Of a stretch of 64,000 nt of DNA, positions 5,388 through 64,000 are shown piece after piece. How positions within the stretch are numbered: the stretch's first letter is position 1; the number at the start of each line of letters is the position of its first letter. The notes under the pieces are model-generated. The model did not search any database. It was not told the origin of the DNA and worked only from the letters and a program-made list of their open reading frames with translations. The translations under genes were made by a program, and so were the position numbers. The DNA comes from a virus: positions 49,046 to 113,045 of IMG/VR virus record IMGVR_UViG_3300037493_003022. The stretch is one strand, 5' to 3'.

Positions 5388-5632
5388 TACCTCTTCTCCT
5401 GTAACGCATTATTCTGTGTGTCTTGTCGTGTCTGCGTCTCATTCTCTTTTACACCAAGATCCCCATACGTCCTAACGACGACATTCTTGCCGGAACCTTC
5501 TGCAAAAGCATCCCTCATAAGATCAATTTTTGTCTTCGGAGGTGTCGGTGGAACTTTTCTAGTCTCATGAAAAAGTTTCATTGACTCCGAAATCTTCCTT
5601 CTAGTTTCGTCTGATCGCTGCATTAGTCCCAT
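5387..5632 (-). CDS. small protein with NUMOD3-like DNA-binding segment
   Basis: An 81-residue protein squeezed between terminase and portal, overlapping the terminase end by 10 bases and the portal start by one. Residues 6-26 (RSDETRRKISESMKLFHET) closely resemble NUMOD3, a helical DNA-binding repeat found in phage HNH and GIY-YIG homing endonucleases. No nuclease motif follows; the rest is hydrophilic. It could be a remnant of a homing endonuclease or a DNA-binding packaging accessory. The NUMOD3 resemblance is by eye. Confidence 0.5.
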   Translation of the reverse strand: MGLMQRSDETRRKISESMKLFHETRKVPPTPPKTKIDLMRDAFAEGSGKNVVVRTYGDLGVKENETQTRQDTQNNALQEKR

Positions 5633-8600
5633 CTCCCATTGTGCCCCGGCCTGCTAGGACGCCTTGATTTGGGCTCAAACACCTTTCGGAATAAGGCCCC
5701 GGCTTCCCTCATATGACTCGCGGCTGTCCATCGGGCTTGTCTTCCAATGAACGGGTTGTCGGTCTCTTCTACTTCCATTGTGCCCTGAACATTGATTGCC
5801 CAGCAAAGAAGCATGGCCGAATCTGGGAAGTCGTCGTAGCAGTTGTCGCCGTCCTTGGGCTTGTGAACAACCATCTGCTGGCCACGCCACTCTTTTTCAA
5901 GGTCGTGCATCTGATTTACGAACTTCTGCCACTTCAAGAGTCGCGTGGCCTGAGCGCCAGCCGGGAAGGTGAAACGCTTCGAACTGATCTCCTGGGAGAA
6001 CACTTTGTAGCCAACATCCTTGGATGCCGCCGTGAAAATGAATGGTTCGACATGAATGTTGTACTCCATAAGATCCGCTGCGAGTCGGGAGTACACAGGA
6101 TCGCCCTTACCAGTTGCGTCGATTACAACTTGGCTTATTTGGTAGTTCTTCAGGAACTCAAGGATTTGAGGGTGCTGAGCTTCATGGTTGTCTCCATGAA
6201 GTTCGAGCCAATTTAGGATGTGGATAGGATACCTGCTTGCCCCGCCAACATCGATTGGAGAATCCCAGAACGCTTTTCCAACAGTAACAACGGTAGAGTT
6301 CGCGCGTCCAACGTCGATGGCTGCGATGATATTTTCCGTCTTATTATCGTAGGTGACTACGTTTGGAGCCCTCTCAAAGTGAACAATCTTCTTGTTCTTG
6401 CCTTTTCCGATCTCAATAGTTAGTCGGTTGTCCTTGTCTTTTATTCCGCACTCGTCGAACAGCTCTGGGTTTACGAACATACCCCGGTCGAGGAGCCAAT
6501 GAAGTCGATACTTCAGTCTGAAATCGTCAGAATCCTCTCCAAGTCGCTCTATTTCTTTCAGAATATACTTACGATAACGAGGATTGTACTTCTGTCCAAC
6601 TGTGTAATCGTACTCGTAATGCCTTCTGTAGCGAGAACGAACAGACCCATCGCTAACATCAGCTCGTTTATTACGACGACAGGCTTCATAAAAGTCAGAT
6701 CTAACTCTGTTACAGGTGCCAATTTTTACGAGAGTACCGGCTGTGTTATGTACGACTATATTATTGGCAATGAAATTGTGCGCCGGATCTGGCATCTCTA
6801 TATCATAAACCTGCTGTTTGCCAGATGATTCAATCGACACAACCCGTTCCCAAACTAAGTCGTTGTCTAACTCCTTTGCGTATCTTTTAGATCCAGATCC
6901 AACTATAATTGACGCTCGTCTCTTATTTCCTCTGAATTCCAAAACTTTTTCTGCGATGACAATCGAGTTACGCTTTCTTTCAACTAGCAGTGGTATGTTT
7001 TTGCAGAAAGCTAGTACGCTATCTTTATCTGAAGTATCTAACTTATAATAGATGCTCCCCTTTTCTGCGTAGCCTTTTCCATTAGAAATAGCTTCGTAGA
7101 TAGAACTCTGTATTCCAAACTTAATTAGAAGATGAGATACTTCTTCAAGAATAACTCTGTTTGCCTGCGATAGTGAGATTGTTACTTTTCGTTCAGTAAC
7201 TCCTATTGTTCCGTCTGTATCGTATAGTCCTCCTAGGAACGCAGCTACTTCCTCTTTTTTGCACTCCCAGATATTAGACGGAACCCTCTTTTTATCCTTT
7301 GTCTGACCGTAGATGTTGGCGGCTCTCAGGAGATTTATCGCTGGGTTTTTACCTTTTTTTGAGCCCTCGACTGAACTAATGCAGCGGACTTCTTTGTACT
7401 CTCTTCTTGCCGAAGTTGTATGGCCTCGTTCTTCTCGACAAGATCCGAGTTGCCTAACCATCCAATCGCCAAGGAAGTCATGTAGCTCTTTGTCTTCTCC
7501 AGAAAAAGCTGGGCTGCAATCCTTGTGGTACGACCCGTCCCCTACAAGCATTCCTAGAACCCTGGCCTCCTCGACACCTATGGAATTTGTTCCAAAGAAA
7601 GGAACAGCTCTCGGAACTGCTATCTGATAACCAACTTTTATATTCTGGAGCGTTTCCCATTTCGGTAGTCTCGGATACGCCCTCGGTTTCCAGATGACTG
7701 GGTGGTCTAAAGTCCCTGTTATCTTCTTTCCTGAATTCAAAGTCATCGTAAGACATTCTTGAATTCCGCTATCTATCTTCCTTATAGGAGTTCCTCTCAT
7801 GAAATGCAGCGTCTCGGAGAAGCACCCGGTCTCCTTTATTGGCATGTCGTCAAGACGAACAATCCTACCGTTTGCCAGTGGAATTAAAGAGTCGCCTGTG
7901 ATACACGCCGCTGCCATCGGATGGATAGACGCGCGAATCTGGCTGGAAGGAATGTCCTGCGACTCTTCCAGAAGGATCAAGTGGTAGGTCTTTCCTTCAA
8001 TCTTCGATTGGGGAGAGGCAGTACCGCAGTCAACGAAGGAACCGTTTGGCAAGACCATGTTCTCTCGAACATCGGTCAGATCCATGTCTACGTCGGGGTC
8101 TAGGAGGGCAGTTTTAGACTCCTTGGAGTACATTCGGGCCTTCATGCGATTCCACATGATTCCGGCCTGAAGGTAGTTGGGAGCATAAATGCCTATCCAA
8201 ACTCCTCTTTCGAACTTCTTTATTCTCTCATCGTGAGGAAGATTTTTGGCTAGGATTGGAAGGAGTACAGATAACCCGCATACAGTTACGGCTACCGTTT
8301 CAGTGTTGTGAGTTACTGTTCCATCTTCAAGCAAGAAACGCTTATTTCCGTCCAACACGAAACCAAAATAGCTCCCGTTACCAGCTTTTGTTATTGAAAA
8401 ACAATACTTGTCTAAGCCGTTAGAGGATCTTATACCTCTAAAAAGATGCTCTTTCCCTAATACTTCCTGTATATGAACGTCCCTGACACTGTTTTCTGAG
8501 ACATCGAACAGGGTAAGTATGTGACTTTCATTTACGGTGTACCTACTGTACCTGGAGTCGTCTGGGGAGATCGTCAGGAGTTTCCCGTATCCGTCTGCGA

Positions 8601-8991
8601 TGGACAATACATTTCTAGCTGTCGAATCATCGCCCATCAGCTTGTCGCCAACCCTCACCTCTTCGACTGGCTTTACGGTTCCGTCGAACATGAGAATTGG
8701 TGTGCCTTTTGCCAGGCACTTTCCCATCTGACGGGCGAACAATGCGGTAATTTCTTCTGCATCTTCGCAAAGCAATGAATAGACAATTCGCCATCCAAAC
8801 TCTAACTCATAGGGGTACAGCTCCACCCCAGTCATATCCTGGGAGTAGGCCATAACCATATCAGCTAGTTTGGATAACTCATCTTTCGTAAGATCCCTTT
8901 GAGGAATCCCGCTGACGTTATCCGCCACTGCTTTTTCGTAGTCGATTGGCTGCTTCTGTGTCTTTGGCGTGTCTTTCATGTCCACGACCAT
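5623..8991 (-). CDS. terL: terminase large subunit interrupted by two inteins
   Basis: A 1122-residue precursor. Removing two inteins (residues 92-229 and 363-749) leaves a 597-residue packaging ATPase/nuclease. Extein motifs: Walker A ARQMGK|TET split by intein 1, Walker B YHLILLEE followed by SQDIP, and a C-terminal RNase H-like nuclease with IAAIDVGRAN, VVIDATGKGD and DDFPDSAML acidic residues. The protein would cut concatemeric DNA and pump it into the prohead. Both inteins must splice for activity, since the first breaks the P-loop. A second in-frame ATG lies four codons in; neither start has a clear ribosome site. A terminator stands just upstream. Confidence 0.93.
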   Translation of the reverse strand: MVVDMKDTPKTQKQPIDYEKAVADNVSGIPQRDLTKDELSKLADMVMAYSQDMTGVELYPYELEFGWRIVYSLLCEDAEEITALFARQMGKCLAKGTPILMFDGTVKPVEEVRVGDKLMGDDSTARNVLSIADGYGKLLTISPDDSRYSRYTVNESHILTLFDVSENSVRDVHIQEVLGKEHLFRGIRSSNGLDKYCFSITKAGNGSYFGFVLDGNKRFLLEDGTVTHNTETVAVTVCGLSVLLPILAKNLPHDERIKKFERGVWIGIYAPNYLQAGIMWNRMKARMYSKESKTALLDPDVDMDLTDVRENMVLPNGSFVDCGTASPQSKIEGKTYHLILLEESQDIPSSQIRASIHPMAAACITGDSLIPLANGRIVRLDDMPIKETGCFSETLHFMRGTPIRKIDSGIQECLTMTLNSGKKITGTLDHPVIWKPRAYPRLPKWETLQNIKVGYQIAVPRAVPFFGTNSIGVEEARVLGMLVGDGSYHKDCSPAFSGEDKELHDFLGDWMVRQLGSCREERGHTTSARREYKEVRCISSVEGSKKGKNPAINLLRAANIYGQTKDKKRVPSNIWECKKEEVAAFLGGLYDTDGTIGVTERKVTISLSQANRVILEEVSHLLIKFGIQSSIYEAISNGKGYAEKGSIYYKLDTSDKDSVLAFCKNIPLLVERKRNSIVIAEKVLEFRGNKRRASIIVGSGSKRYAKELDNDLVWERVVSIESSGKQQVYDIEMPDPAHNFIANNIVVHNTAGTLVKIGTCNRVRSDFYEACRRNKRADVSDGSVRSRYRRHYEYDYTVGQKYNPRYRKYILKEIERLGEDSDDFRLKYRLHWLLDRGMFVNPELFDECGIKDKDNRLTIEIGKGKNKKIVHFERAPNVVTYDNKTENIIAAIDVGRANSTVVTVGKAFWDSPIDVGGASRYPIHILNWLELHGDNHEAQHPQILEFLKNYQISQVVIDATGKGDPVYSRLAADLMEYNIHVEPFIFTAASKDVGYKVFSQEISSKRFTFPAGAQATRLLKWQKFVNQMHDLEKEWRGQQMVVHKPKDGDNCYDDFPDSAMLLCWAINVQGTMEVEETDNPFIGRQARWTAASHMREAGALFRKVFEPKSRRPSRPGHNGRWD
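6745..7905 (-). other. intein 2 of the terminase (387 residues, LAGLIDADG endonuclease)
   Basis: Residues 363-749 of the terminase precursor. Block A is CITGDSLIPL, block B GTLDHPVIW, blocks F/G YDIEMPDPAHNFIANN with VVHN, then extein Thr. Between them lie two LAGLIDADG motifs, VLGMLVGDGSY and FLGGLYDTDGTIG, about 110 residues apart, typical of a monomeric homing endonuclease. Both acidic residues are intact, so homing may still occur. It sits 15 residues after the SQDIP segment of the ATPase. Confidence 0.92.
8305..8718 (-). other. intein 1 of the terminase (138-residue mini-intein)
   Basis: Residues 92-229 of the terminase precursor. It starts CLAKGTPIL (block A, Cys1), has NESHILTL as block B, and ends FLLEDGTVTHN (blocks F/G, penultimate His, terminal Asn) before extein Thr. 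It has no endonuclease domain, so it is a minimal self-splicing element. It interrupts the Walker A lysine-threonine pair (MGK|TET), so removal restores GKT. Confidence 0.9.
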
Positions 8992-35581: not shown

Positions 35582-38521
35582 TTACTCTTCGTCAAGTGAG
35601 CTGTCGTTCAAATCGGAACTTTTCTTCGTTGAAGGCGTAACATTTATGATCCTGTTAGCCTCTCGCTCAGCCTTTGTATTCCCGGAACCGCTAGTCCCAT
35701 GACCCGTTGGTGCAAACACTGAGGCGAGCATCTTAGAGATGCTTCCAGAAGACGAAGATTTAGCTTGAATTACTAATTCTTCCTGCGCCCTTGGCTGGAA
35801 AATAACTCTCGCTTGCTGCACCATGCCTAGGAATTTCTGCATTTCGTTGGAGACGTTGGCGTCGAGAACACCGCCCTGAGCTTTCTCAAACATCACGCCA
35901 GTCATAACACGACCATACTCAGCCTCCAAGACGACTTGGATAGCTTTGTGAAGATCTGCTGTTGTTTCAAGCCGGATGTTGATGTCGTACCCACAGGGCT
36001 CCTTAGCCTTGTACCGAGGACAACGACCACTCAGAAAGCAGGTGTCGCAGTGGAGAATTTCGTGGGCTCGATCGTCGAACCGAGCATCGTCAACTAGAGC
36101 GAGTCGTCGAGATTCTGCGCGAGCGAGAGACTGCTTGCGGTCAATCAAACCCTCGGTGTTGAACACCTTCGATTTGAGAGTGAGAGCCTGGTCCTTCTCC
36201 TCTGGAGTGAGCCAGTAGCAGTTCTGCACGTTGAAGCGAATCGAATCTGCCCACTGCTTCCAGGCAAGGGCGTTCATCAAGTCTACTTCTTTTCGCTTGT
36301 CGTCCTCGATGTCCTTCCAGACGATTCCGTTTTCTTCAAGTCTGGTTTTGAATCTTCTTCTAACGTCTTTATGAGTATGGTCGTAGTAGCGAATACGACC
36401 GTTTTGGAAGACCATGGTGTTGCCAAATCGCGAACCCCCAACCCAAGTAGTGTTGTGAGCAAGAATCTCGTTTGCAATAAACCGCTCAGCACCCGGAACT
36501 TCTAAGTCATATACTTCCCTTGTTTCCAGGGGCAGGGTCTCTATCTTTATAATTTTAAGATAGTTCAACTCAGATTCATAAACACCTGGATTAAAATACT
36601 TAGTGTAATCAGTTCTTCCGACGAATTCAGTTTCGGAATCCCAAAGATCACCGCTAATCCATCTACCACGACAGTGCGCGAGGGAAGCGGGAATTCTCGA
36701 ATGGTACGGAAGTCTCTTTTCCTTTCTATAAGTGACAACTTTTCTCTTCGTAAAGAAACCTATTTTGGATTCAAACTTTTTCTTAGCTTCATTTGAAGAG
36801 ATTGTAACCCGGTAGTGTTTGGTATTAGACAAACCTTTTGAACAAGGAATGCCCATCAAAAATAAAGCTGCGAAAACTTGGTCAGATAACTCCTCGCTAA
36901 TGGAAGAAGTATACGGCTTATCACCTGCGCTACCATCAGAGCTAAAATAACCCCTCAAAACATGACATGCTTGTTCTTCACTCAAAGACCAGAACCAGCC
37001 TGGAAAGGCTTTATTTGCTGCCCCGGAAGGGAACCCCGCTGCTCGAAGCCATCGAGCAAAAGAGTGGCTTGAAAAAGAAGTGTCTCCTTGTTCATGCTCA
37101 GTTAGAACTCTGTCGAACCGACTAGCAATCAACCTTGCCAACTCGACTGGTTCTTTGTCTAAACCACAAGAGCAATTAATAGAGGTCTCGCTAGAAAAAC
37201 TCCCGTTTCCAACCCAGTAGCCTAGAAACTCTAACATCTCCTTGTCTAACTCGACACAGAGTTTTTCTGTTGGAGAATCATGCCAACGATTGTTCAGATA
37301 AGGAACGCTGTAGGAGAACTCCAACTTCTCCAAGCCCTGTCCAAGCCATTTACCTCGGCTAGGGCATACTATCCAATCACCTTCTTCAAGAAGGGATGGT
37401 TTAGTCTCTAAAAGATCTCCTTCAGGCCCCATTCTAAACAAACTGTGATCGGAAGTAACTTCAAGAGATAAACCACTGGCAACTGTAATCTTTAGGAATT
37501 CCTTCTTTACAGTATGCTTAACGACACTCCTCAAAGGAACCCATTTGGTTACATACTTGCCATCTTCTTCGACAACAGAGAGCGTCTCTGAATCGGGAGT
37601 TGCGACCCTACCCTCGAAACCCACTAATTCTTCGTTGTCCTTAAAACTATTATAGAGATCTTCTATTGAAATTCGTTCTGGGTATGGTCCTTGTTTGAAC
37701 CAAACCTTGCTAGAACCACCTACGGAAGAATCGATCGAGTACCACTTGCCGCGTATAACCACATCGGCAGCGGTAGCACCGAATCCATGAAACACGCATC
37801 CATACTCTCTACCTTTGTTGGTAATCTCGATGATGTCGGCGAGATGTTTTGGATTCCCAATCATAGCGGAACCAATCGCTATGTAAGGATACTTATCGTA
37901 CCAACCCATCTCAACTAACTGGTTCACAGATTCATTCTGAACAACGGGAACGACGGGGACGTTTGATGCAAGGAGATCGTCCTTGAACTCCTCCATTTGA
38001 TACTGAGTAAATTTCGCATGAACGTCAACCTCAGCACACCCAGCAAACAAATGTCCGATCCGTTTAAGCTCCTGATAGTAGTCCTTCGTGTACTCCTCAA
38101 CGTCCATCCCCAAATCCTTACCGCCGTTGATGGCTTGGATCAGAGAGAAACCCCCGGAATCGAGGAAAACGAAATCGAATCTACCTAGGTCTTCTGCGAT
38201 CTCCTGAACAGTTAGTTTCTTGAGCCATTTCCTAGAATAAAAGTACGAGATAAGGATGTTCCTAACACCAATTCGATACAGACCATCTCGATACTCTCGA
38301 CCATCGGCTCCAGCGAAGCAGAGCTTAATACCGAAGCATCTTCTATCCAACTGAAGTGTTCGGTCCCACTTCATGAGAAAAGAATCTAACTTAGGACTTC
38401 GGATAGTTCCCGTAGCAAGCTGCTCATCAGTCTTCCCTTCGTCATCGTTTGGGAGTTCCATATCCTCCGTTGGAATCTTTACGTTTTCAAACTGGTCGAT
38501 AGTATCGAAATCGTCTGACAT
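35582..38521 (-). CDS. dpdA: DpdA-like 7-deazaguanine transglycosylase interrupted by an intein
   Basis: A 979-residue precursor; removing the 425-residue intein leaves 554 residues. The extein has the tRNA-guanine transglycosylase fold: FVFLDSGGFSLI corresponds to the DSGGFQ active-site loop, GCAEVDVHAKF lies on the next strand, and FHGFGATAADV and YSIDS|TTWVGGSRFG follow the SVDST pattern of DpdA enzymes. A cysteine cluster near the end (HCDTCFLSGRCPRYKAKEPC) fits the zinc site. DpdA proteins swap guanine in DNA for preQ0-type bases. The preQ0 synthesis genes lie 6-9 kb upstream in the same run. Target could instead be tRNA, but the sequence is nearer DpdA. Confidence 0.78.
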   Translation of the reverse strand: MSDDFDTIDQFENVKIPTEDMELPNDDEGKTDEQLATGTIRSPKLDSFLMKWDRTLQLDRRCFGIKLCFAGADGREYRDGLYRIGVRNILISYFYSRKWLKKLTVQEIAEDLGRFDFVFLDSGGFSLIQAINGGKDLGMDVEEYTKDYYQELKRIGHLFAGCAEVDVHAKFTQYQMEEFKDDLLASNVPVVPVVQNESVNQLVEMGWYDKYPYIAIGSAMIGNPKHLADIIEITNKGREYGCVFHGFGATAADVVIRGKWYSIDSSVGGSSKVWFKQGPYPERISIEDLYNSFKDNEELVGFEGRVATPDSETLSVVEEDGKYVTKWVPLRSVVKHTVKKEFLKITVASGLSLEVTSDHSLFRMGPEGDLLETKPSLLEEGDWIVCPSRGKWLGQGLEKLEFSYSVPYLNNRWHDSPTEKLCVELDKEMLEFLGYWVGNGSFSSETSINCSCGLDKEPVELARLIASRFDRVLTEHEQGDTSFSSHSFARWLRAAGFPSGAANKAFPGWFWSLSEEQACHVLRGYFSSDGSAGDKPYTSSISEELSDQVFAALFLMGIPCSKGLSNTKHYRVTISSNEAKKKFESKIGFFTKRKVVTYRKEKRLPYHSRIPASLAHCRGRWISGDLWDSETEFVGRTDYTKYFNPGVYESELNYLKIIKIETLPLETREVYDLEVPGAERFIANEILAHNTTWVGGSRFGNTMVFQNGRIRYYDHTHKDVRRRFKTRLEENGIVWKDIEDDKRKEVDLMNALAWKQWADSIRFNVQNCYWLTPEEKDQALTLKSKVFNTEGLIDRKQSLARAESRRLALVDDARFDDRAHEILHCDTCFLSGRCPRYKAKEPCGYDINIRLETTADLHKAIQVVLEAEYGRVMTGVMFEKAQGGVLDANVSNEMQKFLGMVQQARVIFQPRAQEELVIQAKSSSSGSISKMLASVFAPTGHGTSGSGNTKAEREANRIINVTPSTKKSSDLNDSSLDEE
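36452..37726 (-). other. intein of the transglycosylase (425 residues, Ser1, LAGLIDADG)
   Basis: Residues 266-690 of the precursor. The N-terminal residue is Ser, not Cys (SVGGSSKVWF), block B is TSDHSLFRMG, blocks F/G are YDLEVPGAERFIANE with LAHN, and the next extein residue is Thr. LAGLIDADG motifs are FLGYWVGNGSF and VLRGYFSSDGSAG. The boundary is set by restoring YSIDS-TTW in the extein. It sits beside the substrate-binding SxDST loop, so the unspliced enzyme should be inactive. Confidence 0.88.
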
Positions 38522-54457: not shown

Positions 54458-54847
54458 CTACTCGTTGATGAGATTGTTAAAAACTTCGAGGGGAACAGCA
54501 ACCCACTCCTTGGGGATAGGATCAGGAATGCCGTACATGGAGATTACTAATGCGGGGTCTTTACCTGTGGTAGACGCCTCTCGATAAATCTTTCCAAGGA
54601 CATCTGGAGTGACATTGAAGCGGTCCTTCTCTGTCTCCTTGCATTCGAAAACAAAGTCCTTGGTGACTCCATCTCCCTTGCGGGAAGGCCACGCTTGGTT
54701 TCCAGATCCAGGAGTTAGCTTGAACCCGAGTTTCTGTGAAAGACGTTTCTCGTTTCGCAACGATTTGGTCTTCACGTCCTCTGGTTCCTGCTCATCCCAC
54801 ATCTTCGGAGTCGGTTTCCTCGGAGGAAGGTTCTTTGGAGCTTTCAT
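54458..54847 (-). CDS. PD-(D/E)XK endonuclease-like protein
   Basis: A 129-residue protein with NEKRLSQKLGFKLTPGSGN, KGDGVTKDFVFECKETEKD: the E ... D ... ExK pattern of resolvase/VRR-NUC-type nucleases, with the Gly-Ser-Gly loop typical of archaeal-type junction resolvases and phage recombination nucleases. It overlaps the RecA gene end by 56 bases. Probably acts on branched or recombination DNA together with RecA. Confidence 0.7.
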   Translation of the reverse strand: MKAPKNLPPRKPTPKMWDEQEPEDVKTKSLRNEKRLSQKLGFKLTPGSGNQAWPSRKGDGVTKDFVFECKETEKDRFNVTPDVLGKIYREASTTGKDPALVISMYGIPDPIPKEWVAVPLEVFNNLINE

Positions 54848-57287
54848 TCGGTCTTTCCAGTCCCTCTTCTTGCCACATGAGTTCTCGAGAACGAACCCTA
54901 TCCATGAGGTCCTTCATGAGAACAGGATTCTGGCTGAGGAGGATTCCTGCCTTCTCGTCACCTTGAACCTTGGACCCATCAGGCATGGTCAGCCACCCGG
55001 CTCCTGCTCTCTGGATGATTCCCCAGTAGGAAGCAGCTCGAATGACTTGGACAGCAGTATCCGTGTCACCGACTCGATGAGCGCCTCTCTGAGCGACAAA
55101 GTAGAGGGCGAATTGGCCACCTTCAGTGACAGGGTAGGTCTTGTTCTTCTTAACGACGAACTCGACCTGCACTCCAATTGGACGACCCGAACCCTTGTCT
55201 ACGATCTCCTCGGACTTCTTGAGACGCAGCTCGACGGATTGGTAGAAGTCGGGAGCCTTCCCACCGGGAGAAGTCACTGTAGGGTGGTAACCTCCTAGGG
55301 CCAATCGAAGCTGATTGACCATAAAGATCGTACACCTCGTCTCCGAGAGAAGTCCGAATGAGTTTAGACCGGAGGTCCATTTGCGGAACGCCTTTCCTAG
55401 CAGGCGTGCCATCACGCCTACCTGCCATTTCTCCGCGCTTTCTTCCACCTCAATACCCGGAGTAAGGGCTGCAATCGAATCCACAATGAGAAGATCACAC
55501 TCCCTACTACGGATACATTGGTCAGCGACATCTATTGCTTGCTCCGCGTACTCTGTTTGGATGACAAGAAGGTCTTCTACACAGACGCCCCACTTAGCAA
55601 CCCAGGTAGGATCGAATGAGTTATGAATTATCAACCCTTCGGATAGAAAATTCTGCTCATCGAAATCGATTTCTTCTAAAGACACATCGAAGGTTCGGTG
55701 CTTCTCAGGAAGCTCGGTGACTGATAAAATCTCCAGCTTAATGTAATTTTTGTAATACTCCCTCCGATCGCTGGATTTAATGGAGGCCACAGCTTTTTCA
55801 AGCCTCTCACGTTTGTACGAATAAATAGGAAATGAAGATAAAAATGACTCTATATCTTCGAGTCCTTGGATACTCACTTTCCAATTAATACAATAGCCAT
55901 CTTTTTCCGATGGGCTTAGCGAAGAGTAAATTCCAAACTGCAAAAGAGCAGACTGGATATCCAGAGCTAACAACCTGCTGGTGGTAGAAAAGTGTGCGGA
56001 AGCTCTTTTCTGGTACGCGGGGTCTACGCTGCTACCATCAGCCATAAAAATTCCTGCTAGAACTTGAGATAGCTGACTACGAGACAGACCCTTTGGCAAC
56101 CTCCGATCAACCGAAAACTTACCAAAACATTCGAATTGCTCAAGCCACAGGTGAACTTTGTTTTTTCTACCCTTGAAAAACTTTGGATCTGCTGAGAAAT
56201 TCTTTGGGGGTCTCTCTAGTTTGAGCCGAGAAGCTCTGCTTCTTCTCTCGAAGGACGAACAGATTGAAAACTTCTCTAAATAGTCTACGATCGTATCTCT
56301 CCCGCAGCCAACTAAATCTGCAATCTCAGATACGTATAAGTTGGAATTCCAAAGCCCAAGCAAAGAGTCTCTATCTAAATTATACTCCTCTCTCGTAGAG
56401 ACTATATTTACGTTGGCGCTACTTACATTAACTCTGCAATCAAGAGGTGATACAATAGCCTCAATGTCCTCAATTATGCAGGTGTCTATGTTAGAGATGG
56501 ACGCCTTATCGTGCAAACCATCTCCAATATGGAGACCTAACAACCGATACAGAGAATTGGATTCCCCTGGGATTGATAGCTCTATCTTCTTAGGAGTGTA
56601 TACAATATCCCCTGGAACCAACTCACTAACCTCAGAATACCCGCAGGAAGTAAGAACCTTATGATTCCCAGTAAGCTTTATCGATCTTCCTCCTCTTGTC
56701 TGAACTTCATAAACGGAACGGACGCCTGAGTCTGATACGATAGCGTTAGTTTCTTTGAAGTTACCTTCTTTATCGAAAGATAGGGTCTTAAAAGAAACTC
56801 CCAAAGGTAGAGTGTCTACCGGAACGTATCTACCTTCTGAAGACTCATATACTAAAGTCCCTTCCGCTAGGCAGTGCTCGGCATCGAGAACGACGACTCT
56901 CATTGGAGAGCGTTTTCCACACTTACAGTCGATGTCAGTAACTTCTCCGGTAAGGTCATCGACAATCTCAAAAGCTTTCCCGCAGAAACGACAGTGCCTC
57001 TGTGCGTTTGCAGCAGTCTTGTAAGTAATTCCCGACTTACCCGTGGAGAAATCACCTTTGACAATCGTGATTCGACCACGAGGAATGCCTCCTCCGATCT
57101 TCATGTCGAGGTCAAAGATGCCCGTGGGAATTCGGTCAACGACTAACGAGATAGCTTCTGAAGCTGGAAGAATAGTTCCGGGACCATAATTCGCGTTGAT
57201 GGATGCAAGAAGACTCTTCAGGTCGCCCCTCTTGGGCTGACCCTTTTTCTCGGGCTTCTCAGAGTCTTCTTTTTTCTGACGTGCCAT
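54792..57287 (-). CDS. recA: RecA-like recombinase interrupted by an intein
   Basis: An 831-residue precursor; removing the 418-residue intein (residues 139-556) leaves 413 residues. Walker A is GDFSTGKS (about 79-86), Walker B LLIVDSIAAL, and loop 2 with FMVNQLRLALGGYHPTVTSPGG is typical of RecA. Unusual is a four-Cys insertion at 99-124 (CRFCGK ... CKCGK) between Walker A and VLDAEH, absent from bacterial RecA as I know it. It would form filaments on ssDNA for strand exchange. C-terminus is acidic and ends in SEETDSEDVG. Confidence 0.92.
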   Translation of the reverse strand: MARQKKEDSEKPEKKGQPKRGDLKSLLASINANYGPGTILPASEAISLVVDRIPTGIFDLDMKIGGGIPRGRITIVKGDFSTGKSGITYKTAANAQRHCRFCGKAFEIVDDLTGEVTDIDCKCGKRSPMRVVVLDAEHCLAEGTLVYESSEGRYVPVDTLPLGVSFKTLSFDKEGNFKETNAIVSDSGVRSVYEVQTRGGRSIKLTGNHKVLTSCGYSEVSELVPGDIVYTPKKIELSIPGESNSLYRLLGLHIGDGLHDKASISNIDTCIIEDIEAIVSPLDCRVNVSSANVNIVSTREEYNLDRDSLLGLWNSNLYVSEIADLVGCGRDTIVDYLEKFSICSSFERRSRASRLKLERPPKNFSADPKFFKGRKNKVHLWLEQFECFGKFSVDRRLPKGLSRSQLSQVLAGIFMADGSSVDPAYQKRASAHFSTTSRLLALDIQSALLQFGIYSSLSPSEKDGYCINWKVSIQGLEDIESFLSSFPIYSYKRERLEKAVASIKSSDRREYYKNYIKLEILSVTELPEKHRTFDVSLEEIDFDEQNFLSEGLIIHNSFDPTWVAKWGVCVEDLLVIQTEYAEQAIDVADQCIRSRECDLLIVDSIAALTPGIEVEESAEKWQVGVMARLLGKAFRKWTSGLNSFGLLSETRCTIFMVNQLRLALGGYHPTVTSPGGKAPDFYQSVELRLKKSEEIVDKGSGRPIGVQVEFVVKKNKTYPVTEGGQFALYFVAQRGAHRVGDTDTAVQVIRAASYWGIIQRAGAGWLTMPDGSKVQGDEKAGILLSQNPVLMKDLMDRVRSRELMWQEEGLERPNESSKEPSSEETDSEDVG
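55620..56873 (-). other. intein of RecA (418 residues, LAGLIDADG)
   Basis: Residues 139-556 of the precursor, between VLDAEH and SFDPTW. Block A CLAEGTLVYE, block B LTGNHKVLTS, blocks F/G FDVSLEEIDFDEQNFL with LIIHN, next extein residue Ser. LAGLIDADG motifs are LLGLHIGDGL and VLAGIFMADGSS, about 160 residues apart; in between is an HTH-like segment (VSEIADLVGCGRDTIVDYL). The endonuclease looks intact. Confidence 0.92.
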
Positions 57288-57670: not shown

Positions 57671-58262
57671 ATCCTGGTCCTTCCAGTTCTTCTACCCCGT
57701 ATGGATAGTTGGCCCACAATTGAAAAGTCTTCTTAAAGAACTTTGTTCTTGATAACTTAAATCTGGCAACCTGCTGACCATAACTATGCTCAACGCTAGC
57801 GTAGTATTTCGCCATCTCGCGAACCTGGAAAGCAGTATACAGTCTCCAACCTCTAAGGTCACGATACATGGCCTTTGGAAGAGCGCCCGTTTTCTCCCAC
57901 ATAAAGATAGTTTGAGCCTTCCTGTCAAGGCGCATAGCTAACTGCCCGGTGGTATACATCTCTGTTTCGATCTCTCGCCCATCGGGAAGACAGACCTTAA
58001 ACAGAGTTGGAGTTTCGTATCGAAGATTCTGTTCTTTTAATCGAGCACGCTTCTCTTGAGATTGCTTCTTTTTAGCTTCTCTTGCACGTCGAAGAACTTC
58101 TTCTCGATACTCGGGATCTTCAAGATAGCGCTTCTTTCGCGCTTCTATGATGGCAGTTTTATTCTTCTCGTAATAAGTCGAATTGTGCTTCGACCTATTT
58201 TTCTTGCGCTCTTCCTCTTCCTCTTTAGGAATAGGTTCGCCGAGTTTTCTGAGTTCCGCCAT
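57648..58262 (-). CDS. MerR-like helix-turn-helix protein
   Basis: A 204-residue protein. Start MAELRKLGEP has its ATG just after the previous stop. Residues 15-85 are a very basic helical region (KKRYLEDPEYREEVLRRARE). Residues 108-155 hold a MerR-type winged HTH: YTTGQLAMRLDRKAQTIFMW and LYTAFQVREMAKYY. Probably binds DNA in replication or regulation. Overlaps the next gene by 23 bases. Confidence 0.6.
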   Translation of the reverse strand: MAELRKLGEPIPKEEEEERKKNRSKHNSTYYEKNKTAIIEARKKRYLEDPEYREEVLRRAREAKKKQSQEKRARLKEQNLRYETPTLFKVCLPDGREIETEMYTTGQLAMRLDRKAQTIFMWEKTGALPKAMYRDLRGWRLYTAFQVREMAKYYASVEHSYGQQVARFKLSRTKFFKKTFQLWANYPYGVEELEGPGYVKITED

Positions 58263-58263
58263 G

Positions 58264-58785
58264 TTACTTGCTCTTGAGTGTCTTGGGGATGAGGGCGATA
58301 ACTTCGGAAGGCTTCTTAACAATGAGAGCAAAGGTCGGAGCACCTATGCTGGAACAGGCTTTGATCTCCGCAGGGGAGATCTCGCCAAGCGCAACGAGCG
58401 CCTCGACCTTGGCTTCATCGACAACCTTGGTCATGATCTTCTCGATGTCGAAGTTGCGCTCAACGAGCAACCCTTTGAGAATTTTCACGTCGAGAGACGT
58501 TTTCCCGGACTTCTTCTGCTGCGTGATGGTGCCATCCGACATGGGCGGCTGATACTCGAAGTGACCCTTGGGGGTCAAGGAACCCTTCGATTCCGCGAGT
58601 TCCATGAGATACTTGCGGAGCTGATCCTTGCGAGCACCAACAACCTCCTTGTCGATGAGGTCAAGGACAGACCAGGCTGCGAGAACCTCCTCGTCAGACA
58701 TGTCCTCCGGGGGAGTCTTCAACAGCTTCTCTGACTTCAGAAGATTGGCAGTTTCACGAAGGATCAGCTTTTCGTTTTGTGTCAT
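58264..58785 (-). CDS. hypothetical replication-region protein
   Basis: A 173-residue protein, helical N-terminal half (MSDEEVLAAWSVLDLIDKEV), a Gly/Lys loop near residue 90, and a C-terminal region KSGKTSLDVKILKGLLVERN then VDEAKVEALVALGEISP. GC-rich codons imply good expression. It starts a transcript behind an A/C-rich leader. No family is recognised. Confidence 0.5.
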   Translation of the reverse strand: MTQNEKLILRETANLLKSEKLLKTPPEDMSDEEVLAAWSVLDLIDKEVVGARKDQLRKYLMELAESKGSLTPKGHFEYQPPMSDGTITQQKKSGKTSLDVKILKGLLVERNFDIEKIMTKVVDEAKVEALVALGEISPAEIKACSSIGAPTFALIVKKPSEVIALIPKTLKSK

Positions 58786-58820
58786 GGCGATGACTCCTTT
58801 TGTTTTGGTTGTTTGTGTTT

Positions 58821-58837
58821 TAACAGAGTACAGAATA
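58821..58837 (-). promoter_or_regulatory. variant promoter-leader module upstream of 58264-58785
   Basis: Minus strand TTGC-TATTCT (extended -10; hexamer 58837-58832), seven bases, then GTTAAAACACAAACAACC, i.e. the leader without an AUG. An AAAGGAG ribosome site lies before the gene. Confidence 0.5.
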
Positions 58838-58870
58838 GCAAAAATCCTAATTAAATGGAAGAGAAATTAT

Positions 58871-60271
58871 TTATCCGTGAACAGTATACCTTAATTTTTT
58901 ATACTGTCGGCGACGGAATTCCATCCCACCTTCAAAGGGATTCGATAAGTCAACGTCGTACAGATCTTCTGCCCCCTCTTTAAGAAGAACCAGCTCCATT
59001 TTTTCATCGAAGAAGTCTAAAACGACAGGGGCACCCTTTCCCTCAAAGATACGAAGAATTCTTCCAACCGTCTGTTGAATCGAATTCTGAGGGGTAGCCA
59101 TGATAAGAGTATCCAAATCAGGGATATTCAAACCTTCGCTGGCCATCTGGTAGGTGGAAAGAATGATCGACTTCTGTGCGGCTATATCGAGTTTCGCTTG
59201 TTTTGTGCCTCCCACATAGAAACCAACTTCGTCCGCTCCCATTCCTTCCGTTGCGAGGCGTTGTGAAAAATAATCAAGCTGCGCGCGCCTCTCCGATATG
59301 ACCAGAACTTTACGGCCTGCGTTATACGCCCGAATAATGTAACGAAGAACAGCTTCATTTCTACCTACATGACTAGCTAGGGCAGTTACGAGAACTGCTC
59401 GTTGAGCTTTCTTATCCAGCCAGGGTTTGTACCAAACTTTTTGAGGAATCTTAACGTCGGTCTTGATAACGTAAACGTCTGGGGTGAGCGTGCTAGCCTC
59501 CAGAACAGGCCCACTGGAGGAAATGTGCTTCGTGATTACTTTCCAGAGTCCGTCTTGTCTACTCGGGGTTGCTGTGAGGCCGAGTCGATATCTCGCTGGA
59601 AATCGGGTGATGGCCTTTTGCCAGAGGGCGGCTCCGTAGCGATGAACTTCATCGCAAATGATAAGACCAAAAGAATCATAGAAAGAATCTCCATAGTCAC
59701 GGCGACTGTTAACCACAGACTGAGTAACAGCAATGACAATATCATGCGTGCGACCCGTGTCAACAACATCTCTTTGCATCCTTCCTACTGTTATCCAGGG
59801 AGCAAGCATCCGAAAGGCTTCTTCCCATTGTTTGGCCAAGAATTCCTTATGCACAAGTATGCAGGTGGATACGCCTATTTTGAGTGCTATCTCTGCACCC
59901 ATCACAGTCTTCCCGGTTCCGCAAGCTGCGATAAGGAGACTCCCTCCTTCGCTATGGATAGTCTGTAAAGTATCTCTGATAGCTATGTCTTGACCATCTC
60001 TAGCTTTGAATAACGAGTTCTCTGTATGGTCAAGATGCCTGCCATCCGAAGTCATGTCATAAACAGTGTCTCCAATAAACGAAGTAGCGTAGCAACGAGG
60101 AATACAGACTTCTCCAAACTCCTCGTTGTATTCGTAAATCTCAAAAGTCTCTCCGTCCTTCTCTAGTTTCAATTCGTCGAGAATTTCAGGAAGCTTAGGA
60201 TGGTTTTCAGGTACGCGAAGAAACCCATCCATATCGATTCGAGTTCGTTTACTTGGCAGTTGATCTGACAT
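58871..60271 (-). CDS. superfamily 2 DNA helicase, XPB-like
   Basis: A 466-residue helicase. Motif I AACGTGKT, Ia ILVHKEFLAKQW, II CDEVH, III LTATP, IV VLVISERRAQ, V STYQMASEGLN, VI QQTVGRILR are all present and in order, so the enzyme looks complete. The N-terminal 100 residues may be a DNA-recognition domain. Of XPB/RadD-type helicases in phages, roles in replication restart and recombination are known. It overlaps the polymerase gene by 23 bases. Confidence 0.88.
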   Translation of the reverse strand: MSDQLPSKRTRIDMDGFLRVPENHPKLPEILDELKLEKDGETFEIYEYNEEFGEVCIPRCYATSFIGDTVYDMTSDGRHLDHTENSLFKARDGQDIAIRDTLQTIHSEGGSLLIAACGTGKTVMGAEIALKIGVSTCILVHKEFLAKQWEEAFRMLAPWITVGRMQRDVVDTGRTHDIVIAVTQSVVNSRRDYGDSFYDSFGLIICDEVHRYGAALWQKAITRFPARYRLGLTATPSRQDGLWKVITKHISSSGPVLEASTLTPDVYVIKTDVKIPQKVWYKPWLDKKAQRAVLVTALASHVGRNEAVLRYIIRAYNAGRKVLVISERRAQLDYFSQRLATEGMGADEVGFYVGGTKQAKLDIAAQKSIILSTYQMASEGLNIPDLDTLIMATPQNSIQQTVGRILRIFEGKGAPVVLDFFDEKMELVLLKEGAEDLYDVDLSNPFEGGMEFRRRQYKKLRYTVHG

Positions 60272-63029
60272 AGGCTTTCTCCCTTACTTTGCCATCACTC
60301 TTTGCGGAGTTCCAGTTGTCACCAATACCTGGAACAGCAGTCATTGGAGCGCGAAGAGCAACGGCATGTTCCATATGGCGTTGAACATCAGAAGCAGCCT
60401 CTTCAATAAAATCCTCAGTGGCTTCAAAAATAAGTTCGTCGTGAACCTGGGACAGAAGCTTAGCTTTCCCTTTACCCGTGTAGTAGTCATATAACACATC
60501 TCGAGAAAGCCACTCTTGATACAGATTCCTCATGGCGATTTTGATAACGTCAGAAACACTACCTTGGTCGGGAGTATTGCTAGCTTCATGTTGAGCTAGC
60601 ATTCGCTTATATGAGTTCTTATTACGTATGTCCTCGATGTAGCGAATCCGCCCGGTGATAGTCCTAACGTACCCGTGCTGTTCTGCGTACTTGTGCATCC
60701 TCTCATGGTATTTTCTAACGAGTGGATAAGTTCTATGCCAGGCATCCCAAAGTCGCTGTGCCTCTTTTTCAGAGACTCCAACGATTTTTCCTTCTTTGTT
60801 TTTCGTGTCTTTAAGTTGTCCCTGAAGAGTTTTCGTTCCCATCTCATAGATGAGTCCAAGATTAATGACCTTTCCAGTAGGACGATCGCATTTACAATTT
60901 TCAGCGGTAAGACTGTGTAGGTCAAGACCCTCGTTGTACGCTTTCAGTAGCATGGGATCTTGGGAAAGATGGGCCATCATAACAAGGTCTGCTTGGGAAT
61001 AGTCAGCGACTCCCATCTTCCAACCTTTGGAAGCTATAAACGCATTTCTTATCTTATGGCCTTCTTCTGACTTCTGAGGAATATTTTGCAGGTTAGGGTC
61101 TGAGGAATTATGATTTATGAAACCTTGGGCTACATAGGAATGATCTTCTTCTACTTCGATGTCATAGACTTCCATTGTTCCCAAAGAGAAGATTGAAGCA
61201 ATCCTATTCGCTTTTGGTGTAATCTCTGGTGACCAGCCAGAGAGCACAATGCAAGGTTGTCTAACTCGTTGTTCAATGGATTCTCGTCTATGTGATGAAC
61301 TACTAAGGAGCTTGGAAGATTCTCCGGGGAAATCTTCAGTGCCTGCGACATAACTATCCGATGAACAAAGTAGCGGACATCTCCTACTAGAGCTGTCAGA
61401 TATCCCTTGCAATCCGAGCAAACGCCCTTCCAATTGTGATGGTTCTCTCCTAGCTTCCCCTTCATGGGATTCTGATCTCCCATCTTGCTCCTGGAGTACC
61501 TCAGTTGTTTCTCCAATACCATCCGTTCTGGATCTACATTCTGCTGGAGAATGGCAACAACTGTATGGTAAGTTGTTTTTAACCGGGAACGTATCTGTTG
61601 TATCGTTGGCTTCTCTGGATCTACTAAATACTGTTCCAACACCATCTTCACTGAAACAGGGTCGTTCAGGACCTTCTTCGACACAGACATTAAACACCTC
61701 TTCTCCTGAGGAGAGTTCGCCCAAAGAACACCAACCATCTGGAGTGAGAAATCTGTGCTCTTTGGTACAGTCTATTCTGCACCCAGACTCTAAAACGACC
61801 CGGAACATTGTGTCAAGACCTTTGAGAATCTTCCTGACTATAGGTCGATATCTTCCTCGATGAGTTAGAATTTCGTCGCCTTTTATGACTTCATACTCGG
61901 AAATCTTAAAGTCTCCGCGAGTGGTTTTAAGAAGAGTATCTCCAGATACACATGCGAGACGTCCGGTACGAGTTCCACATTGATTAAAATCACCCCGTAG
62001 TCTTTCGTCCTCGTAAAGTTTACAATGCTCAATTAAAGGAAGGGTGTAGGTACTACAGAGCTTATCTAACCGTTGGAATCTAGACTTGAGTTCGTATGCC
62101 CTATAAGCGTCAGTGTCTTTAGAAATTGCATTTCCGACTCGTTCGAGGTGCCCGGCATCGACAGAATAGAATCCTGATTTGCCACGCTCAAACTTGAGCT
62201 GCTCGGCTGGCCACCATTGGAGGTCTTCATACAATCGTCGTGACACTGCTTGAGAACTTGAGATAGAGACGCCAACCAAGGCTTCAAACTGTCGGCGAAC
62301 TTCTTCAAGCTCTGTTCGGAATTCGGTGTCAAGGTCATCCAGATACTCCATGTCGATGTTGAAGCCGGATTCTTTCATGTGAACGAGAACTGGAATGAAA
62401 GGCATCTCCAAGTCGGTAAACACCTTGGTCAACTGTAGCTCTTCAAGTTCAGGCAACCAAAGATCAGCAAGACGAAGACACTGGAGAGCATCGTCGGCGC
62501 AATACTTGGTCATCGTGTCGATTGGAACATGGAACGCCTTGGAACGAGAGTTCATCACCTCTTCCCAGGTAGTCATGTTGTACTTCAAGTATTCTTTCAC
62601 GGCGGCTTTTAATTTAAGTCCACCCGCACCCTGAAGTTTCTTACCGAGAAGATATTGAAGAACCATTGAGTCGCGGATTTTATACTTAGGTTTAATGCGC
62701 AAAGTGCGAGAAACCATATACTCGAACTTGGCATTGTGAGCCCAGATTTCTTTAGTATGGTCAGTGAGTACGTTCTCAAGTATCGTCATGACTCGTTGAC
62801 GATTGGCATTGATACCGCTCGCGTGCATCATGGGAACGTAACAAGACTCTCCATCTGGGAAAGCGAATCCAGCCCCAACGACTTCTATTTTGTCGTGTTC
62901 AAGGGCAGCTTTTTCGTTGCTGGAAAAGCTAGCTGTTTCGTAATCGAGTCCTATTGAGTCAGCGGCAGCTAATTTCTCTGCCAACTTAGACAACTCTGAT
63001 GTTGTGGCTACGGTGTAGGCTTCTGACAT
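60249..63029 (-). CDS. polA: family A DNA polymerase interrupted by an intein
   Basis: A 926-residue precursor; removal of residues 360-641 leaves 644. N-terminal DEDD 3'-5' exonuclease: GLDYETASF, WAHNAKFEYM and YCADDALQ. Polymerase: RTGRLA|SSDPNLQNIP spans the intein site, motif A GVADYSQADLVMM, motif B TGKVINLGLIYEMGTKTL, motif C LSQVHDELIFEA. Motif A has Ala where many have Ile-Glu (DYSQIE), and motif B has Leu for Phe. No 5'-3' exonuclease domain is present. This is the replicative polymerase candidate. The splice must occur for the template-binding region to form. Confidence 0.93.
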   Translation of the reverse strand: MSEAYTVATTSELSKLAEKLAAADSIGLDYETASFSSNEKAALEHDKIEVVGAGFAFPDGESCYVPMMHASGINANRQRVMTILENVLTDHTKEIWAHNAKFEYMVSRTLRIKPKYKIRDSMVLQYLLGKKLQGAGGLKLKAAVKEYLKYNMTTWEEVMNSRSKAFHVPIDTMTKYCADDALQCLRLADLWLPELEELQLTKVFTDLEMPFIPVLVHMKESGFNIDMEYLDDLDTEFRTELEEVRRQFEALVGVSISSSQAVSRRLYEDLQWWPAEQLKFERGKSGFYSVDAGHLERVGNAISKDTDAYRAYELKSRFQRLDKLCSTYTLPLIEHCKLYEDERLRGDFNQCGTRTGRLACVSGDTLLKTTRGDFKISEYEVIKGDEILTHRGRYRPIVRKILKGLDTMFRVVLESGCRIDCTKEHRFLTPDGWCSLGELSSGEEVFNVCVEEGPERPCFSEDGVGTVFSRSREANDTTDTFPVKNNLPYSCCHSPAECRSRTDGIGETTEVLQEQDGRSESHEGEARREPSQLEGRLLGLQGISDSSSRRCPLLCSSDSYVAGTEDFPGESSKLLSSSSHRRESIEQRVRQPCIVLSGWSPEITPKANRIASIFSLGTMEVYDIEVEEDHSYVAQGFINHNSSDPNLQNIPQKSEEGHKIRNAFIASKGWKMGVADYSQADLVMMAHLSQDPMLLKAYNEGLDLHSLTAENCKCDRPTGKVINLGLIYEMGTKTLQGQLKDTKNKEGKIVGVSEKEAQRLWDAWHRTYPLVRKYHERMHKYAEQHGYVRTITGRIRYIEDIRNKNSYKRMLAQHEASNTPDQGSVSDVIKIAMRNLYQEWLSRDVLYDYYTGKGKAKLLSQVHDELIFEATEDFIEEAASDVQRHMEHAVALRAPMTAVPGIGDNWNSAKSDGKVREKAYVRSTAK
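61107..61952 (-). other. intein of the DNA polymerase (282 residues, no in-frame endonuclease)
   Basis: Residues 360-641 of the precursor. Block A CVSGDTLLKT, block B DCTKEHRFLTPDG, blocks F/G VYDIEVEEDHSYVAQG with INHN, next extein residue Ser. Residues about 90-245 are a Ser/Arg/Glu-rich stretch with no homing-endonuclease motif; that DNA encodes an HNH endonuclease in the +1 frame. So the intein frame has been kept open through 180 codons of another gene. Confidence 0.88.
61151..61690 (-). CDS. HNH homing endonuclease encoded out of frame inside the polymerase intein
   Basis: A 179-residue HNH endonuclease in the +1 frame relative to the polymerase, wholly inside the intein and between its splicing blocks. 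Start MSVSKKVLNDP at 61690 has a GAAGAGGTG ribosome site four bases upstream; an ATG at 61738 is an alternative. A helical N-terminal part (PTIQQIRSRLKTTYHTVVAI) is followed by a NUMOD-like MGDQNPMKGKLGENHHNWKG, then the HNH core VHRIVMSQAL, LVVHHIDENPLNNELDNLAL and GHQRLHQK. All metal ligands look present. Confidence 0.85.
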   Translation of the reverse strand: MSVSKKVLNDPVSVKMVLEQYLVDPEKPTIQQIRSRLKTTYHTVVAILQQNVDPERMVLEKQLRYSRSKMGDQNPMKGKLGENHHNWKGVCSDCKGYLTALVGDVRYFVHRIVMSQALKISPENLPSSLVVHHIDENPLNNELDNLALCSLAGHQRLHQKRIGLLQSSLWEQWKSMTSK

Positions 63030-63104
63030 GGAGTTCCTTTGTTCAATGAAAATGGCCAGGAGATAATTCTCCTGACCGTTTCCATATGAGAGGGGTTTTA
63101 GAAA

Positions 63105-63803
63105 TCAGAACTTGACGTTGTCTTCTACCTCTCCCTCAACTTCAGTGTTGACAGGAGTGGCATCGTCTTCGTCGTAGCCAACGGGCTCCATGACGCCAGA
63201 GAGAATCTTGACGATCTCCTCTTTGGTCTTCGGGGCAAAAAGTTCCGCGTAGTCGAGCGGAAGAACATCGAGAGGGAGTTCCGTCTTCTCCTCCCAATCG
63301 AAGGTGTCCCCGGTATTGGGACTCTCATCGGTGGCACGGGAAACGTCTACTCGCCAACCCCTCAGACCCTTTTTCTTGTCGGCAGCTTTCTGAAGAATTT
63401 TGCCGACCTTGGTCTTGCATACGAAGAGGCGGATCTCATCCTTGTGGGTCTTCTTGTCAGCCTTGGACTCCCATTCGGAGTGGTCGATCACCGTGTACGC
63501 GCGGGCGAGGTAGGGCTTGTTGTTTCCCTCGCAAAGAGGACAACCCCGGCCGAGGCAGGTAAACCAGTTCTTCCAGTCGTCGTTGATCTTGATCTGATGC
63601 TCCATGAACGCGAACGGGAGGTCATACCCCTTTGGGTGAGTCATTCCGTCAACGAAGGTCAGGATCTTGTTTTTGTCAGCCTTCATCCAGATGCGGGGAA
63701 CCTTACCACCAGCCTCACGGCGCTTCTTCTGCTTCTCCAGTTCAGCATCGAGAGCTTTGTTCGCGCGATCACCTGTGTAGGCCCAACTTGGTGCGTTACC
63801 CAT
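63105..63803 (-). CDS. putative single-stranded DNA-binding protein
   Basis: A 232-residue protein upstream of the polymerase with the composition of phage ssDNA-binding proteins: basic, aromatic N-terminal half (VPRIWMKADKNKILTF), a zinc-like loop WFTCLGRGCPLCEG as in gp32-like proteins, beta strands (ARAYTVIDHSEW, EIRLFVCKT), and a strongly acidic tail (TEVEGEVEDNVKF) of the type that recruits partners. GC-rich codons fit high expression. An AAGGAG site precedes the ATG. Confidence 0.65.
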   Translation of the reverse strand: MGNAPSWAYTGDRANKALDAELEKQKKRREAGGKVPRIWMKADKNKILTFVDGMTHPKGYDLPFAFMEHQIKINDDWKNWFTCLGRGCPLCEGNNKPYLARAYTVIDHSEWESKADKKTHKDEIRLFVCKTKVGKILQKAADKKKGLRGWRVDVSRATDESPNTGDTFDWEEKTELPLDVLPLDYAELFAPKTKEEIVKILSGVMEPVGYDEDDATPVNTEVEGEVEDNVKF

Positions 63804-63873
63804 TCGAGGCTCCTTTTTCTATGTCGCGGTGGACATTTTGGTTACCCGTATTTTTAACAATCAAAAATTTGGG

Positions 63874-63888
63874 CATGAAAAGAGTGTA
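63874..63888 (-). promoter_or_regulatory. promoter-leader module upstream of the ssDNA-binding protein gene
   Basis: Minus strand TACACT (63888-63883), CTTTTC, then ATGCCCAAATTTTTG. A weaker copy; the six-base spacing to ATG is kept. Confidence 0.45.
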
Positions 63889-63917
63889 TATGAGAACTTA
63901 ATCAAAGGAAAGATAAT

Positions 63918-64000
63918 TTAATGGGAATTATTCGACTTACAATGCGGAAACATGTCGTTGTAGGGGCCGCCCATTCTTCGAACATGAAAGGCTAAAACCT
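63918..64000 (-). CDS. 3' end of a gene entering the window
   Basis: A frame open from the window edge to TAA at 63918-63920, encoding a natural-looking end (VRRMGGPYNDMFPHCKSNN). The 5' part lies outside. A second frame is also open for most of this short stretch, so the call is tentative. Product unknown. Confidence 0.35.
   Translation of the reverse strand, partial: VLAFHVRRMGGPYNDMFPHCKSNNSH

Follow-up and report, generated by a model that had tools for sequence, protein, structure and literature searches.

A family-A DNA polymerase gene in this viral DNA very probably harbors a composite homing element, in which a splicing module is combined with a separately translated HNH nuclease that is overprinted on it in another reading frame. 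The window, i.e., the whole 64,000-base stretch that was analyzed, corresponds to positions 49046-113045 of a 113,045-base IMG/VR virus contig. Judged by sequence comparison, the layout is a real and maintained device and not a sequencing error, since it recurs in no fewer than 20 polymerase genes of viruses and prophages that are only distantly related. The elements of the locus are as follows.

60249..63029 (-), family-A DNA polymerase gene with intein, 926-aa precursor, based on the ORF and profile matches
61953..63029 (-), N-extein, 359 aa, comprising the 3'-5' exonuclease and the beginning of the polymerase, ending in TGRLA
61107..61952 (-), intein, 282 aa, from Cys1 to His-Asn, with Ser at +1
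61680..61952 (-), N-terminal half of the splicing domain (intein residues 1-91), carrying blocks A and B, pLDDT about 92
61233..61679 (-), linker in the intein frame (residues 92-240), free of stops and predicted to be disordered, a shadow of the HNH frame
61107..61232 (-), C-terminal half of the splicing domain (residues 241-282), carrying blocks F and G
60249..61106 (-), C-extein including the stop codon, first residues SSDPNLQNIP
61695..61707 (-), Shine-Dalgarno AGGAGAAGAGGTG, 4 nt 5' of the HNH start codon
61151..61690 (-), ORF of the HNH endonuclease, in the +1 frame with respect to the intein, 179 aa and a TAG stop
61217..61363 (-), HNH core, residues 110-158, including VHHID..NN..DNLA..GH..LH
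61154..61201 (-), last 16 HNH codons, overprinting the conserved intein block F, both frames constrained
61083..61106 (-), 24 nt 3' of the intein (SSDPNLQN), with the intron sites of other phages 12 or 18 nt in

The usual picture of an intein is that of a single protein comprising two domains. The host polymerase gene in the window is a single 926-codon ORF and not two ORFs as in a fractured gene with a split intein. It matches the profiles DNA_pol_A (E=2.3e-83), an exonuclease domain (E=6.9e-15) and Intein_splicing (8e-10); the intein C-terminus is recognized by TIGR01443 (7.9e-8) and the N-terminus weakly by TIGR01445 (0.003, below the cut-off). The intein occupies residues 360-641 of the ORF, bounded by TGRLA and SSDPNLQNIP, and displays a catalytic Cys1, the T..H of block B and a C-terminal His-Asn followed by Ser, one of the residues (Ser/Cys/Thr) expected after an intein. 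Residues C1, H66, H281 and N282 are invariant in 15 members, with either Ser or Cys at position +1. In the AlphaFold model, residues 1-91 and 241-282 form a confident HINT fold (pLDDT about 90) and no structure is predicted for the linker (pLDDT about 35). The solved structures nearest to the model of the splicing halves are mini-inteins, headed by the Ssp DnaB mini-intein (E 2.5e-8). Neither the profile search nor the predicted structure revealed an endonuclease domain in the intein's own frame, in agreement with the preliminary description, which had reported intact splicing ends and no in-frame endonuclease. Its long linker of about 180 codons is indeed free of stops, but the part without predicted structure is shorter and comprises about 149 residues (92-240).

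The HNH ORF extends from an ATG at 61690 to a TAG at 61151-61153 (179 aa); an alternative upstream ATG at 61738 would give a product of 195 aa. In the intein gene the +1 frame is open over 206 codons. No other same-strand alternative-frame run in the window is as long, and the window's three other intein genes, which have an in-frame LAGLIDADG, reach 72-99 codons. The HNH protein matches Pfam HNH_3 (1.2e-7) and PHROG HNH (8e-17), and residues H132, H133, N141, N145, H154 and H158 are invariant in the member alignment. An N-terminal helical domain and the HNH core are predicted by AlphaFold; a Foldseek search with this model gave no significant match, with I-HmuI among the top entries (E 0.65). 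The nuclease had been placed between blocks B and F, which is largely correct, except that its frame also covers block F. The ribosome site in the window, caGGAGaaGAGGTGtttaATG, has a predicted duplex energy of -7.4 kcal/mol, a value equaled by 0.9% of nearby positions. In most members a Shine-Dalgarno sequence precedes the conserved HNH start (combined p for the ribosome sites about 1e-12; L009 and L082 have no convincing site), which supports the earlier proposal of a +1-frame HNH with its own ribosome site. The start codon lies near intein codon 70-88, and the protein begins with MS(V/I)SK in most of 20 loci.

Members of the family were searched with a degenerate DNA pattern combining the intein end and PNLQxIP, yielding 34 IMG/VR stretches, about half of which have the out-of-frame HNH architecture. 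Scans with the HNH alignment added further viral loci and one locus in a Rubritepida MAG. With near-copies counted once, 20 distinct complete loci (window included) are available, all at one polA position, in addition to two partial loci (L012, L084); most are metagenomic contigs without assigned hosts. Across 15 aligned sequences, the HNH proteins are 41-50% identical to that of the window and the intein frame 24-36%. Cultured phages gave no near DNA match to the window, a search of the cultured-phage collection found no member of the polA out-of-frame family, and a direct IMG/VR search with the window polymerase returned no relatives. By inspection, the same polA site is also occupied by in-frame HNH inteins (L004, L005, L016, L020, L023, L033, L034) and by one in-frame LAGLIDADG intein; the out-of-frame layout is therefore one solution among several. 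Homologs in which the HNH frame is broken and the intein persists had been named in advance as evidence against the element, and the HNH frame is truncated in none of the complete members. The near-copy of L007, L036, shows a change from HH to HR (VHHID to VHRID) with an intact intein, possibly a decaying nuclease. In L035 (near 6290, reverse strand), the N- and C-intein of polA lie in different frames with stops between them, for which a split intein, a frameshift and a fractured gene are possible alternatives.

The constraint on both frames was assessed by shuffling codons synonymously. In 20,000 HNH-synonymous shuffles of the HNH gene in the window, the intein frame acquired 9.2 stops on average and was never free of them, while the observed number is zero. 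Over all loci, intein-frame stops are absent in 20/20 against 2.8-12 expected (summed log10 P about -69), and HNH-frame stops are absent in 20/20 against 2.3-5.9 expected when the intein-frame protein is kept (summed log10 P about -49); these sums treat related loci as independent, without phylogenetic correction, and are descriptive only. As controls, five HNHs from group I introns and two chromosomal homologs contain 7-26 stops in the same frame. The suggestion that selection keeps both frames open is hereby upheld. In the comparison of codon positions proposed with it, mismatches in the overlap amount to 0.453/0.384/0.598 by HNH codon position, so that the intein wobble is the most conserved position: the HNH wobble varies most and the intein wobble least, the reverse of the N-terminal splicing half. 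It is thus the HNH frame that governs substitutions in the overlap, and the intein linker is its unconserved shadow, with an identity of 0.223 vs. 0.214 expected from the HNH protein alone. The tail over block F (last 16 codons) has an identity of 0.415 vs. 0.224 expected. From this pattern of codon positions and identities it follows that the HNH frame is constrained throughout, the linker by the absence of stops only and the tail in both frames. A function of the linker deduced from its conservation was dropped as a candidate, this conservation being nearly what the HNH frame alone imposes; a small excess in BLOSUM score (0.395 vs. 0.313 expected) probably reflects shared ancestry.

In the proposed mechanism, the HINT-fold mini-intein encoded in the polymerase frame would excise itself to leave a working polymerase, with a disordered 149-residue linker at the place where an endonuclease domain normally sits. 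The +1 frame would supply the HNH homing endonuclease as a free protein, with a helical (helix-turn-helix-like) domain at its N-terminus; its translation would start at its own ribosome site within the polymerase mRNA. This enzyme would cut or nick the intein-free polA of co-infecting phages at the TGRLSSSxPNLQ codons, and repair of the cut gene would copy intein and nuclease together. Selection in the overlap would preserve the nuclease and keep the intein-frame linker only stop-free. Splicing and mobility would then be provided by two proteins from one DNA stretch, with two frames kept over large divergence. Such an organization would explain mini-inteins that seem endonuclease-free yet spread, and it will escape annotation that forbids nested genes. 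It also offers a natural system to study selection in overlapping genes, with the intron-borne homologs and the in-frame HNH inteins of the same site as clean controls.

The distribution of the element suggests mobility. The intein is absent, at precisely the corresponding position, from polymerases that are 57-74% identical to the one of L022. Comparison with intein-less relatives, as had been recommended, was thus successful for L022, but searches of cultured phages and IMG/VR yielded no relative of the window polymerase with an empty site. HNH identity exceeds the identity of the adjoining exteins in 130/171 pairs, with a weak correlation (0.29), a pattern as expected for horizontal spread. 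Together, the patchy site occupancy and HNHs that are closer than their exteins point to spread. The nearest cultured HNH relatives reside in group I introns of phage polA, inserted either at P^N or at NL^Q within SSSxPNLQ. These points lie 12 or 18 nt away on the 3' side of the intein site, and group I intron matches were found there. One of these HNHs, I-PfoP3I, is an experimentally characterized nicking enzyme whose nick lies 4 nt 5' of the intron insertion point and whose recognition sequence spans positions -3 to +11 (PMC3428280). As this intron-borne relative is characterized for this polA stretch, the HNHs of inteins and introns likely share their target stretch, and we infer that the nuclease target in the window lies within 61083..61106. 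Given its relationship to intron HNHs located 12-18 bp away, a nuclease already specific for the stretch probably reached the intein site. A single polA target would in this way link intein nucleases to group I intron nucleases. The tree does not support a single origin of the intein HNHs, as the chromosomal homologs L153, L155 and L158, which lie outside inteins, fall among them. In L153 (near 3805-4546, a Verrucomicrobia MAG) and L155 (near 3793-4501, Erythrobacter litoralis), a polA-like fragment stops at the TGRL site and is followed by an HNH of the family; neither fragment has an intein or Rfam intron match.

Other readings of the locus have to account for the same observations. Programmed +1 ribosomal frameshifting, which would fuse the N-terminal intein half to the HNH, is compatible with the window itself, where the HNH frame is open for 27 codons upstream of the ATG; it is nevertheless quite improbable across the family. 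An HNH-frame stop occurs at most 27 codons upstream of the ATG in 20/20 loci and immediately 5' of it in L024 and L030, so that upstream frameshifting cannot supply the HNH N-terminus in these two, and the start position, the MS(V/I)SK motif and the ribosome site are all conserved. Because of the abutting stops in L024 and L030, independent initiation of the HNH is favored on sequence grounds. The insertion could also be read as a group I intron with its HNH gene, as the nearest cultured HNH relatives sit in such introns. This is scarcely credible given the complete HINT splicing fold and the polymerase frame that is open throughout; in addition, no intron match was obtained for window positions 58000-64000 or for seven members (E 0.1 or laxer) in a search that found the intron controls. 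Sequencing or assembly frameshifts in an ordinary in-frame HNH intein, a type that does occur at the same polA site, have an equally negligible probability, since two compensating indels would be needed in each of 20 loci in which both frames are stop-free. Moreover, the in-frame HNHs at the polA site look unlike the out-of-frame family, and the cultured phages TJE1 and Highwayman have the same kind of layout in TerL. Independent metagenomes and a bacterial MAG show the same out-of-frame arrangement, and this recurrence excludes the sequencing error that had been listed as a possible objection.

The alternative that deserves most weight, although still unlikely, is an HNH gene that invaded a mini-intein and is kept for another role, e.g., the exclusion of competing phages, without currently mobilizing the intein. 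HNHs of phage introns, e.g., I-HmuI, can cut both intron-plus and intronless alleles (PMC3428280), and the gene could be maintained by biased cleavage instead of homing. This reading is opposed by the patchy occupancy of the site and by HNHs that are more similar to each other than the exteins are. Homing and another role are compatible and not exclusive, and we retain the composite homing element as the preferred reading.

This layout cannot be called unprecedented: that would be too strong, as an out-of-frame HNH in a brucellaphage TerL intein was mentioned in one sentence in 2015 (PMC4422536, Virol J). That case concerns TerL and not PolA, and dual coding is not put to a test by comparison or by structure in the passage in question. 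A preprint on actinobacteriophage inteins (bioRxiv 10.1101/2025.01.02.630785), whose title mentions non-canonical architecture and which is cited for overlapping frames in PMC11855218, may already describe out-of-frame nucleases in inteins. Hidden out-of-frame HNH insertions were reported in the methylases of phages ShiLan and Pacc40 (PMC11855218, Genes 2025). Similar to the polA element, these consist of an out-of-frame HNH within a stop-free in-frame insertion for which homing was proposed; however, they lack intein splicing motifs, and hence a known way to remove the insertion, as well as a ribosome site, whereas the window element has both a HINT splicing domain and ribosome sites. The polA group I intron HNHs such as I-PfoP3I (PMC3428280) are the nearest cultured relatives and act on the same polA stretch, but are carried by a self-splicing RNA intron and have no second frame to keep open. 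Ordinary HNH or LAGLIDADG inteins share the HINT splicing domain with a nuclease between blocks B and F; their nuclease belongs to the intein protein itself and is read in its frame, while that of the window polA has a separate frame and would be a free protein.

Out-of-frame nucleases are not limited to this polA family. By inspection, the same scans contain at least a dozen loci of TerL inteins with an out-of-frame HNH; L124, L148, L123 and L204 have Pfam matches both to terminase and to intein or Hint domains. The layout in TerL is also present in the cultured Tetrasphaera phage TJE1 and Acinetobacter phage Highwayman. L220 has an out-of-frame HNH within an N6/N4 methylase intein. In L028 (2196-3098), a DUF559-type nuclease of 301 codons is read from a polA intein in its +1 frame, and L019 (2-412) is a similar partial case; the layout thus extends to a second nuclease family. 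The nuclease frame differs by host gene, with +1 for PolA, both HNH and DUF559-type, and mostly +2 for TerL HNHs. The four TerL HNHs included in the tree form a separate group, and the arrangement therefore probably arose more than once. It appears reasonably likely that out-of-frame nuclease inteins form a widespread, repeatedly evolved class occurring in PolA, TerL and an N6/N4 methylase, of which the PolA lineage shares its target stretch and nuclease family with neighboring group I introns. If true, overprinting would offer inteins a general means of carrying a nuclease that need not fold inside the splicing domain. Two further layouts were observed. L149 (3715-4309) encodes DnaE (Pol III alpha) with an apparent intein and an out-of-frame HNH seemingly located before block B. 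The methylase-like genes of L111 (3838-4261) and L123 (3877-4381) resemble the ShiLan insertion in that they contain an out-of-frame HNH but show no intein motifs on inspection.

Besides polA, the window contains further intein genes, so that the phage carries at least four. The 1122-aa ORF at 5623-8991 (-), beside the portal gene, combines intein and LAGLIDADG domains with weak TerL matches and probably encodes a terminase interrupted by at least one intein. A queuine tRNA-ribosyltransferase-like gene at 35582-38521 (-), with a possible role in 7-deazaguanine modification of DNA, is interrupted by a LAGLIDADG intein, and a RecA/UvsX-like recombinase with a LAGLIDADG intein is encoded at 54792-57287 (-).
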